64,000 nt of DNA from Flavobacteriales bacterium (GTDB lineage Bacteria > Bacteroidota > Bacteroidia > CAIKAF01). A program made the translations under genes and the position numbers. The stretch is taken from the NCBI GenBank assembly GCA_025451235.1, contig JANWKT010000008.1, positions 124,001 to 188,000 of the forward strand. The letters are read 5' to 3'. Within the stretch, counting starts at the first letter, position 1. Every line of letters begins with the position of its first letter. The notes beneath the pieces were generated by a model. That model searched no databases and was not told the origin of the DNA. It saw only the letters and a program-made list of their open reading frames with translations. This document shows, piece after piece, positions 23,320 through 33,993 of the stretch.

Positions 23320-24291
23320 ATGCAGGATCTGAAAGACATATCTATTGTTATTCCACTTTATAATGAAGAAGAATCGTTGCCAGAATTAGTCACCTGGATC
23401 GAAAAAGTAATGTTGGAAAATAAATACTCCTACGAGATTGTGATGGTGGATGATGGAAGTAATGACCGGAGTTGGGAGGTGATCCAGTCTCTTCACTTAA
23501 AAAATCCGAATATTAAAGCCATTAGCTTCCGCAGGAATTATGGAAAATCTGCCGGCTTAAATGTTGGGTTTGAACATGCCGAAGGCAAAGTGGTGATTAC
23601 TTTGGACGCTGACCTGCAGGACAGTCCTGACGAAATCCCCGGGTTGTATAAGATGATCACAGAGGAGGGATATGACATTGTAAGCGGATGGAAAAAGAAA
23701 AGACATGATCCTATCACCAAGACCATTCCTACAAAAATTTATAACGGTGTTACACGAAGAATGTCGGGCATTAAGTTGCATGATATGAATTGCGGACTGA
23801 AAGCATATAGGTATGAGGTAATAAAAAATATAGAGGTATATGGTGAAATGCATCGCTATATACCGGTGATCGCCAAATGGGCCGGGTTTAAAAAAATAGG
23901 TGAAAAGGTAGTTCAGCATCAGGCACGTAAATTTGGTAAGACCAAGTTTGGAGGACTGGAAAGGTTTATACGTGGCCCCCTGGATCTTTTATCTATCATG
24001 TTTGTTTCGAAGTTTGGGAAAAGACCCATGCATTTTTTTGGCAGTTGGGGTACCGTTATGTTTTTATTGGGATTTATCATCGTGCTGATCATGGCGGGCC
24101 AAAAATTGTTGGCAGAGTATAACGGTCATCGAATGCCTAAGATTGCTGAAAATCCTTTGTTCTATGTAGCCCTTGTGCTGGCTATTATTGGTGTTCAATT
24201 ATTTCTTACGGGTTTTATAGCAGAGTTGGTTTCCAGGAACGCCCCTGACAAAAACTTATATAGGATAAAACAGAAGCTAGGGTCTGAATAG
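23320..24291 (+). CDS. Family 2 glycosyltransferase with C-terminal membrane helices (GtrB/DPM type)
   Basis: 323 residues. The GT-A domain covers residues 1-230: ISIVIPLYNEEESLPEL at 8-24, VMVDDGSNDRSWE with the first Asp pair near 43, LDADLQDSPDEIP near 96 (DxD-like metal site) and a QHQARKFGKTKF block near 200. Two transmembrane helices follow (about 243-263 and 280-302). This layout is that of enzymes that move glucose or another sugar from a nucleotide sugar to a polyprenyl phosphate on the inner membrane. Another glycosyltransferase follows beyond the inserted GxxExxY element. Confidence 0.92.
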   Translation: MQDLKDISIVIPLYNEEESLPELVTWIEKVMLENKYSYEIVMVDDGSNDRSWEVIQSLHLKNPNIKAISFRRNYGKSAGLNVGFEHAEGKVVITLDADLQDSPDEIPGLYKMITEEGYDIVSGWKKKRHDPITKTIPTKIYNGVTRRMSGIKLHDMNCGLKAYRYEVIKNIEVYGEMHRYIPVIAKWAGFKKIGEKVVQHQARKFGKTKFGGLERFIRGPLDLLSIMFVSKFGKRPMHFFGSWGTVMFLLGFIIVLIMAGQKLLAEYNGHRMPKIAENPLFYVALVLAIIGVQLFLTGFIAELVSRNAPDKNLYRIKQKLGSE

Positions 24292-24297
24292 TTACAA

Positions 24298-24333
24298 CGA
24301 AGTACGAACTTATACGAACCTACGAAGTACGAA
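24298..24333 (+). repeat. Left terminal inverted repeat of the GxxExxY element
   Basis: Built from short units: CGAAGTACGAAC, TATACGAACC, TACGAAGTACGAA. It pairs with 24784-24819 with two mismatches (positions 13 and 30 of the repeat). It begins 6 nt after the stop codon of the upstream glycosyltransferase. Confidence 0.85.
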
Positions 24334-24385
24334 AAAACTAACGAACAATTTGAATTGACACGAATCTACGAAGAGGTACTAGAAA

Positions 24386-24790
24386 ATGAAACCACCTTTA
24401 AAACGAAATGATTTAGTTTATCCAGAATTAAGTTATGAGATTATTGGTTGTGCCTATGAGGTTTGGGATGAGTTGGGACCGGGGCATTTGGAAAAAGTTT
24501 ATCAAAAATCACTTGGTATAGCTTTTGGGATTAGAAAAATAGCTTTTGAGGAACAAATACCATACCAGTTAAAGTTTAAAAATGAAATTGTTGGAAAAGG
24601 AATTTTAGATTTTCTGGTTGATAAAAAAGTAATAGTAGAATTAAAGAAGGATAACCTTTTTTCAAAATCACATATAGAACAGGTTTTGAATTATCTCAAA
24701 TTATCAAAATGTAAGTTGGCCATTCTTATTAATTTTACAAAGGAAGGCATTAAATTTAAAAGAATTGTAAATATCAACACCGATTCGTAG
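24386..24790 (+). CDS. GxxExxY protein, PD-(D/E)XK nuclease-like
   Basis: 134 residues. The name-giving motif is G33-HLE36-KVY39 in the first half. A PD-(D/E)XK-like core follows: LDFLVDKKVIVELK, with Asp75, Glu85 and Lys87 in the D...ExK arrangement, then a helix SHIEQVLNYLKLS with the common Q. The family (PDDEXK_3) is widespread, about 125 residues long, with no proven activity. Here the gene stands alone inside 36-bp inverted repeats; its TAG stop lies within the right repeat. This supports a role in the upkeep or movement of the element, which is inference. Confidence 0.9.
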   Translation: MKPPLKRNDLVYPELSYEIIGCAYEVWDELGPGHLEKVYQKSLGIAFGIRKIAFEEQIPYQLKFKNEIVGKGILDFLVDKKVIVELKKDNLFSKSHIEQVLNYLKLSKCKLAILINFTKEGIKFKRIVNINTDS

Positions 24791-24819
24791 TTCGTAGGTT
24801 CGTATATGTTCGTACTTCG
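24784..24819 (-). repeat. Right terminal inverted repeat of the GxxExxY element
   Basis: Inverted copy of 24298-24333 (34 of 36). It contains the stop codon of the GxxExxY gene and the ATG at 24806 that gives the longest reading of the following glycosyltransferase. Confidence 0.85.
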
Positions 24820-25846
24820 AAGAAGAGTTGCTAACCCAAAAAATAGTTTGTCTAACACACCCAAATATTCCCTCATCATTCCAACCTTCGGTCGCCCTGA
24901 TGAAGTGGATGAATTTATGGACAGTCTTACCCGACAGGAATATAAAGAGTTTGAAGTGATCATTGCCGACGGAACCCCCAAAAAAAGCCTGGAAGAGGTT
25001 GCCAATAAATATAAGGAAAGGATCCATTTTACCTTTTTATACGAAGAGTTTTTACCCGTAAGTGATGCCCGAAACCTAGGTGCAAAATCAGCTAAAGGCG
25101 AATACCTGATCTTTTTAGACTCTGATTGTATCATTCCCCCTCAATATTTGAAGGAGGTAGACAAAGTGTTGAAGGAAAAAGACTATGATCTTTTTGGTGG
25201 GCCAGATGCTGCGGATAAAAACTTTACCCCCGTTCAAAAAGCCATTAGCTATAGTATGACCTCTTTGTTTACCACAGGTGGGATAAGGGGAAAAAAAACG
25301 CATGTAGGTGTTTTTCATCCCAGGGGATTTAATATGGGAATGAAAAGATCGGTGTTTGAAAAAGTAAAGGGATATGATATTCATTTTAGATGCGCCGAAG
25401 ATATTGATCTAAGCATTAGAATTCTGAAGGAAGGTTATAAAAGCGGATTGATCCCTGCAGCTTATGTATTTCATAAAAGAAGGACCAATTTTAAAAAATT
25501 CTATCAACAGGTTTTTCGCTTTGGGGCTGCCCGTATCAATTTATTTCAACGACATAGAAGTGAGTTAAAAGTGACCCACTTATTCCCATTTGCCTTTTTA
25601 TGCTATTTCTATTTGGGATGGATACTTTATTTTGTACATTTTTATGCAGGGCTTGCCTGGAGTAGCAGCCTTCTTTTTTATTTCTTCCTGATATGGATAG
25701 ACTCGACTATCAAAAATAAAAGTGTATACATCGGACTGCTCAGCATACGCGCCGCTTTTGTCCAACTCACAGGATATGGATGGGGATTTGTTAGAAATGC
25801 GATCGAAGTATTTTTGAAAGGAAATAAATCAGGTTTAAAATTATAA
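24806..25846 (+). CDS. Family 2 glycosyltransferase with C-terminal membrane segments
   Basis: 346 residues from the ATG at 24806, 332 from the TTG at 24848. The first start lies inside the right inverted repeat of the GxxExxY element, so the first 14 residues may be an addition caused by the insertion; the family domain begins at YSLIIPTFGRPDEV. Other marks: IIADGTP, LIFLDSDCIIP (DxD-like), and a CAEDIDLSIRILKEGY block with the catalytic ED. Hydrophobic helices near residues 255-300 suggest membrane attachment. Together with the gene at 23320 it probably builds a surface glycan. Confidence 0.88.
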   Translation: MFVLRRRVANPKNSLSNTPKYSLIIPTFGRPDEVDEFMDSLTRQEYKEFEVIIADGTPKKSLEEVANKYKERIHFTFLYEEFLPVSDARNLGAKSAKGEYLIFLDSDCIIPPQYLKEVDKVLKEKDYDLFGGPDAADKNFTPVQKAISYSMTSLFTTGGIRGKKTHVGVFHPRGFNMGMKRSVFEKVKGYDIHFRCAEDIDLSIRILKEGYKSGLIPAAYVFHKRRTNFKKFYQQVFRFGAARINLFQRHRSELKVTHLFPFAFLCYFYLGWILYFVHFYAGLAWSSSLLFYFFLIWIDSTIKNKSVYIGLLSIRAAFVQLTGYGWGFVRNAIEVFLKGNKSGLKL

Positions 25847-33826: not shown

Positions 33827-33891
33827 TAATGGAATAAAGATAATATTTTTTGGGGCACCTTTCCTGCTATCCGCTATATCTTTTTACCCAC

Positions 33892-33976
33892 CGAAGTACG
33901 AAGAAAACCATACGAACCTACGAAATAAGAACCTCTCTAGCGGTGGTTCGTAGGTTCGTAAAAAGTTCGTACCTCG
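33892..33976. repeat. Empty (solo) copy of the GxxExxY-element inverted repeats
   Basis: 85 bp. Left arm 33892-33924 starts CGAAGTACGAA and ends TACGAACCTACGAA; right arm 33947-33976 is its inverse (10 of 11 and 14 of 14 positions in the two blocks). Both blocks match the 36-bp ends of the element at 24298-24819, but only 22 bp lie between the arms and there is no gene. It may be a deletion derivative or a MITE-like copy moved in trans. It sits between two leftward genes. Confidence 0.8.
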
Positions 33977-33993
33977 ATGAGATAAAAGGATGC

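Follow-up and report, generated by a model that had tools for sequence, protein, structure and literature searches.

A GxxExxY nuclease gene between word-built inverted repeats in a Flavobacteriales genome: a probable single-gene mobile element

Described systems and the GxxExxY locus

Several described systems resemble, each in part, the locus reported here. Among RAYTs, the transposases of REP sequences, the type of repeat follows the phylogeny of the protein (PMC2817692). In Coxiella, the intervening sequence (IVS) of the 23S rRNA is an S23 ORF between complementary ends with repeats of the heptamer GACAGAT, and is cut by RNase III (PMC4990558). The Rpn (YhgA-like) recombination-promoting nucleases are a nuclease family tied to DNA mobility (PMC5350276). 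The GxxExxY genes, in turn, form a very common family without a function and appear as anonymous members of operons. Among the papers mentioning GxxExxY, our literature search returned none on its function; it also found none tying S23 or GxxExxY to flanking repeats, or printing the commonest repeat words.

We analyzed a 64,000-nucleotide stretch of contig JANWKT010000008.1 from a Flavobacteriales bacterium (the window), in which a segment of 522 bp has a single gene inside, a GxxExxY gene, and an inverted repeat (an arm) at either end (Table 1). As in the RAYT/REP systems, the gene lies between two inverted palindromic repeats, there are many scattered intergenic copies without a gene, and the type of repeat tracks protein phylogeny. 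Unlike those systems, the enzyme is a Cas4/RecB-like PD-(D/E)XK protein, the repeats are word-built, and the Y1 transposases found in the same genomes own other palindromes. The element works like RAYT/REP but is not a member, as the Y1 (HUH) domain is absent. With the 23S rRNA IVS it shares a single short ORF enclosed by a stem of complementary ends, arms made of units of about 7 nt, and an ORF in sense to the surrounding transcript. It differs from the IVS in the family and fold of its protein, in lying between glycosyltransferase genes rather than in an rRNA gene, and in the co-occurrence of gene-less palindromes with the gene.

The arms lie 450 nt apart; they are 36 nt each and complementary at 34 of 36 positions (94%), as the initial annotation had reported. 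Its description of the repeat as short TACGAA/TTCGTA units also holds on recomputation: the arms consist of reiterated TACGAA words, and within the left-arm region positions 24297-24308 recur exactly at 24322-24333. The left arm starts 6 bp past the stop codon of the upstream glycosyltransferase, and the right arm takes in both the GxxExxY stop codon (TAG, 24788-24790) and, at 24806, the ATG with which the downstream glycosyltransferase ORF begins, so that the element fills the entire spacer. Homologs of the downstream glycosyltransferase in relatives mostly align only from residue ~16-20 onward. Local alignment of one arm with the other gives a score of 31. In control flanks shifted outward, none of 108 loci from the class scores above 14.5 and none of 72 loci from the window's subfamily reaches 14; with control scores so far below 31, and given the complementarity of the arms, a chance repeat can be excluded.

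Table 1. Features of the GxxExxY element and its surroundings, in window coordinates
Feature	Position	Strand	Remarks
Upstream flanking gene, glycosyltransferase family 2 (host operon)	23320..24291	+	Pfam scan; adjoins the downstream glycosyltransferase in 13 relatives
Left arm of inverted repeat, CGAAGTACGAACTTATACGAACCTACGAAGTACGAA	24298..24333	+	34/36 complementary to right arm
GxxExxY gene, 134 aa, PD-(D/E)XK nuclease (activity inferred)	24386..24790	+	Only gene inside the arms; stop codon in right arm
Right arm of inverted repeat	24784..24819	-	Holds GxxExxY stop codon and ATG of downstream glycosyltransferase ORF
Downstream flanking gene, glycosyltransferase family 2	24806..25846	+	Predicted N-terminus supplied by right arm
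Gene-less compact palindrome, same word family	33889..33979	.	CACCGAAGTACGAAG..TACGAACCTACGAA - loop - TTCGTAGGTTCGTA..AGTTCGTACCTCGATG; C8:157911 = window 33911

The single gene had been called PD-(D/E)XK-like on first reading, and profile searches agree: the matches are well over the curated cut-offs (TIGR04256, 119.1 bits with a cut-off of 35; PF13366 PDDEXK_3, 112.3 bits with a cut-off of 22). Among 42 homologs, residues G31, G33, E36, Y39, D75, E85, K87 and F117 are invariant, while Q99 and Y103 are conserved in at least 90%. D75, E85 and K87 satisfy the D...ExK criterion for a PD-(D/E)XK active site, and a QxxxY motif is a mark of RecB/Cas4-type nucleases. The criterion of a restriction-endonuclease-like core fold is met as well: the AlphaFold model has a pLDDT of 92, and the nearest solved fold is 4ic1 (SSO0001; Foldseek 5e-4; VIA Z 10.8, next best 7.7), which we take to be a Cas4 protein. 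Cas4 proteins typically bind an Fe-S cluster. The GxxExxY protein is like the Cas4/RecB-like nucleases in its fold and in its D-ExK active site with QxxxY; unlike them, it has no cysteines among its invariant residues, is a single small domain and lacks a CRISPR context. Between GxxExxY copies, dN/dS is 0.03-0.11 (gene pairs), indicating that the protein is under purifying selection. The comparison shows that the gene encodes an intact, selected PD-(D/E)XK nuclease of the Cas4/RecB-like, QxxxY type, its nuclease activity being inferred.

Other affiliations were sought. A Pfam scan of the protein gives only PDDEXK_3, with no Y1 (HUH) domain (PF01797), no DDE transposase domain and no S23 domain (PF05635). 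For all the likeness to Rpn as nucleases linked to DNA mobility, there is no match to PF04754 at E 0.001. A defense system was considered and rejected, since PADLOC gives only a weak Cas4b match (E 0.0015) and PHROGs nothing below E 0.005. A sequence search of the PDB yields only a weak match to Csn2 (E 0.03), and phage records contain no GxxExxY match.

Empty sites and the generality of flanking repeats

Is the segment an insertion? Thirteen relatives from the same family have their homologs of the two glycosyltransferase genes (44-72% identical) side by side, either overlapping or at most 55 bp apart; in the window, 517 bp lie between the aligned parts of the two genes. The view that the element parts genes that would otherwise be neighbors is thereby confirmed. 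The same can be seen at the nucleotide level elsewhere: genome G149 carries two GxxExxY elements that are absent from its sister species G172 (~95% identical), where a few to ~15 bp separate the matching flanks. The first element is 464 bp long, and between the same pair of genes G172 has TCAAGTTT instead. The second, a block of 612 bp, consists of a GxxExxY gene and two compact palindromes of the word CACCAAAACAC; in its place G172 has a stretch of ~15 bp. At this site the stop codon of the upstream gene and the start codon of the downstream one overlap (TAATG), a compact layout such as would precede an insertion. No target-site duplication is visible at these two sites, where the flanks have diverged. 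The lack of a DDE transposase parent, and perhaps also of a duplication, sets the element apart from MITEs and other non-autonomous elements, which it resembles in that compact palindromes without a gene share arms with the gene-bearing element.

Paralogous copies in unrelated surroundings tell us where the element ends, as their similarity stops at the ends of the repeats (L109/L124, 89.6% over 483 bp; L219/L220, 81% over 491 bp; and L223/L225). The comparison shows that the window element is an insertion between two operon genes, and we are highly confident that it is a mobile element. The lowest dS between GxxExxY copies is 0.24 and no nearly identical pair was found, so that movement is either rare or past. 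An apparent indel in L244-L247 proved to be an ordinary gene difference with no element. G149 and G172 also differ by ~855 bp at another locus (L312; G172:C57:5300-6500), where G172 has a secreted-protein-like ORF; no word-built repeats were noticed there.

The arrangement is general. Of the 197 genomes sampled from the class, 129 have GxxExxY. At 85 of the 108 class loci whose flanks are long enough, the gene is flanked by an inverted repeat with a score of at least 12, compared with 5 when the flanks are shifted 500 bp outward; at a score of at least 18 the counts are 45 and 0. About one fifth of the GxxExxY loci have no clear repeat. For the window's subfamily we sampled 80 named loci from Bacteroidota and several lineages of Patescibacteria, and a flanking repeat is found in 75 of 78 loci versus 1 of 72 controls. 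Across this subfamily, Patescibacteria included, the density of ACGAA is 16.9/kb beside the gene versus 1.2/kb farther out. Clear repeats also accompany GxxExxY loci on plasmids of Sphingomonas parapaucimobilis, Bacteroides finegoldii and Bernardetia, and a short one (11 bp) a plasmid locus of Treponema; they were not found at plasmid loci of Fusobacteria ZRK30, Persicobacter and Gemmatirosa. Both the plasmid examples and the class loci were picked by protein score, not by repeats. On the S. parapaucimobilis plasmid (L368, 1483-1911), the GxxExxY gene with arms TTCACGCGAAGGCGCGAGGACGCGA splits fabD from fabG within their operon.

The initial annotation had proposed a minimal element and had named two outcomes that would refute it, namely relatives without any empty site and GxxExxY genes elsewhere without flanking inverted repeats. 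Neither came about, and its proposal is supported by the existence of empty sites and the generality of flanking repeats.

Arm words and gene-less palindromes

We are interested in whether the words of the arms are related to the protein that they enclose. Over 77 loci, arms are more alike the closer their proteins are: 5-mer similarity is 0.048 at 25-30% protein identity and reaches 0.63 above 80% (Spearman 0.35; Mantel test, 0 of 999 permutations as high). Common descent of linked arms and gene accounts for part of this correlation, but in neutral DNA the similarity should have faded long before. The left arm in the window is identical at 34 of 36 positions to an arm of a paralogous element elsewhere in the genome (L002). 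In the two subfamily paralogs of this genome (L002/L003), the protein identity is 69% and the arms are 34/36 identical even though synonymous sites are saturated (dS 4.6), which indicates that the arms are constrained. The comparison shows that the words reiterated in the arms are specific to the subfamily to which the protein belongs. In genome G022, two loci (L105 and L112) have genes 85% identical, but most units of both arms differ in their word (CACAAAG vs CGCAAAG), a concerted change for which we have no explanation.

The same words occur without a gene. In the source genome, a half-palindrome pattern derived from the arms has 41 matches, versus 2 for the control pattern, mostly in gene-less palindromes of ~90 bp. 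There are about 20 such compact ACGAA palindromes in this genome; one of them is in the window, ~9 kb downstream of the GxxExxY element (Table 1). Across 197 genomes, 13 have matches to the palindrome pattern and none to the control pattern. A subfamily gene (at least 42% identity) is present in 10 of these 13 genomes versus 10 of the 184 others (Fisher test, p-value 2.4e-9). The genomes are not independent; counted by genus, the figures are 6 of 7 and about 5 of 112. Of the palindrome-bearing genomes without an intact gene, two (G038 and G098) have genus-mates with a subfamily gene, and a third (G020) has only a broken copy of it. In three genomes the compact arms match the variant found around the gene in the same genome: ATCAACGAATAACGAAT..ACGAATATACGAATG in G064 and CGAAGTACGAA..TACGAAC in G105/G072. 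Comparison shows, then, that genomes with the cognate subfamily also have palindromes of these words dispersed in them without a gene. With a single compensated pair, the compact palindromes covary too little for any conclusion.

Proposed mechanism and its alternatives

We favor the reading that a minimal mobile element makes up the 522 bp: it would carry one gene and no promoter, and the encoded nuclease would act on the element's own repeats. Its organization is like that of RAYT/REP, but the enzyme is unrelated, and the chemistry is inferred. On first reading it had been suggested that the protein might help to move or maintain the repeats. What speaks for it is correlation: the words follow the protein, and the palindromes go with the cognate gene. 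On this support we think that the GxxExxY protein probably acts on its repeats, although no cleavage or transposition has been observed and the role has not been shown biochemically. It is tempting to hypothesize that the nuclease would recognize the ACGAA words of its own arms, probably when these are folded into a hairpin or cruciform, and would cut at the arms so recognized. The element, and with it compact palindromes in trans, might then be copied or moved to intergenic sites with the help of host repair, leaving no target-site duplication of the kind that DDE transposases typically produce. This particular chemistry, in which the words are recognized in hairpin or cruciform DNA, cut there, and host repair completes the movement, remains doubtful.

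More broadly, and more tentatively, GxxExxY proteins could be the enzymes that mobilize a large and so far undescribed class of minimal elements, present in Bacteroidota, in Patescibacteria and beyond. In each of them a stand-alone Cas4-like PD-(D/E)XK nuclease would specifically recognize the word-built palindromes that belong to it and would move them, both in cis and in trans. Such a class would be a non-HUH, non-DDE counterpart of RAYT/REP, with the S23 elements as a parallel lineage of the same architecture. We regard this as a serious possibility that falls somewhat short of a belief. If minimal mobile elements with cognate repeats are what these loci are, the GxxExxY family gains a role, one class of palindromes dispersed in the genomes of Bacteroidota and Patescibacteria is accounted for, GxxExxY elements are tied to the long-unexplained S23 intervening sequences, and a new type of nuclease is added as the sole mobility gene of an element. 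We know of no previous case of a PD-(D/E)XK nuclease of the GxxExxY type in that capacity.

The orientation of the genes bears on how they are expressed and also on a different explanation. With ORFs called mechanically, and at loci where the flanking genes could be called, the GxxExxY gene is co-directional with both neighbors at 69 of 74 subfamily loci (reversed to both at 1) and at 80 of 102 loci class-wide (reversed to both at 3); for S23 genes the counts are 30 of 34 and 0. The bias suggests that the GxxExxY gene depends on read-through. From orientation we infer that it has no evident promoter of its own and would be kept only where the host operon reads through in the right direction. 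The same strong bias (69:1, 80:3 and 30:0) also speaks for an element at the RNA level like the 23S rRNA IVS, whose arms would pair in the transcript into a stem that RNase III or the encoded protein cuts, and which survives where it is transcribed in sense with the operon and spreads by an unknown RNA or repair route. The transcript of the element does fold with its arms paired as the closing stem (z -6.1), and the Coxiella IVS, with its S23 ORF between complementary GACAGAT-bearing ends and its excision by RNase III, is a precedent (PMC4990558). Yet the orientation bias may merely reflect a need for expression, the nearest fold of the protein is that of a Cas4-type DNA nuclease, and the gene-less palindromes occupy spacers of every kind: of 20 compact palindromes, 7 lie between convergent, 9 between tandem and 4 between divergent genes, and none inside an ORF. 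We consider an RNA-level element unlikely.

The main caveat to movement driven by the nuclease comes from the S23 genes. Six of them in the source genome (PF05635; L004-L008 and L010, on other contigs) lie between inverted repeats in which a word of 6-10 nt is reiterated, the word differing from locus to locus. Among S23 loci sampled in the class, 25 of 32 have word-built repeats versus 0 of 32 controls, and their words show a trend with the protein (Spearman 0.33; 1 of 999 permutations). The Coxiella IVS, as described, fits this architecture of dispersed S23 genes. S23 is a four-helix bundle and, as far as we know, not a nuclease; that it shares the architecture is the strongest argument that the GxxExxY protein may do something other than cut, and the nuclease may not be the mover. 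One S23 locus (L009), at a contig end downstream of 1166, has tandem GC-rich units of ~100 bp (GGACGGGAGTTACTCGGCTCGGCTGCGCC) instead of word-built arms.

The occupation of similar repeats by two unrelated genes could also mean that GxxExxY and S23 are passengers, as cargo or stabilizers, and that the repeats owe their movement to some other enzyme, for instance a Y1 transposase of RAYT type. Y1 transposases are indeed present in 12 of the 13 palindrome-bearing genomes. However, the Y1 genes of those genomes are flanked by different palindromes of their own (e.g., GTCCCGTTAGGGAC) rather than by ACGAA arms, and in the source genome a distance of 7.6-110 kb separates each Y1 gene from the closest ACGAA palindrome. 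We therefore reject the idea that the ACGAA palindromes belong to a RAYT/Y1 transposase. Moreover, the words follow the GxxExxY subfamily across phyla and the palindromes follow the presence of the gene, and the passenger explanation as a whole seems to us quite improbable. That the gene is instead a host resident and the repeats its terminators or regulatory hairpins, as the long intergenic stems and the compact palindromes between convergent genes might suggest, is scarcely tenable, being largely refuted by the empty sites in relatives and opposed by the same subfamily having the same words in both Bacteroidota and Patescibacteria, by palindromes in divergent spacers, and by the A-rich sequence, rather than a T-run, that follows the compact stems on the + strand.

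The Y1 (RAYT-like) transposases of these Bacteroidota genomes (L333-L362) have a repertoire of their own, with flanking palindromes that include GTCCCGTTAGGGAC, GGGCTTTAGCCC and CCGAAGGGATT.
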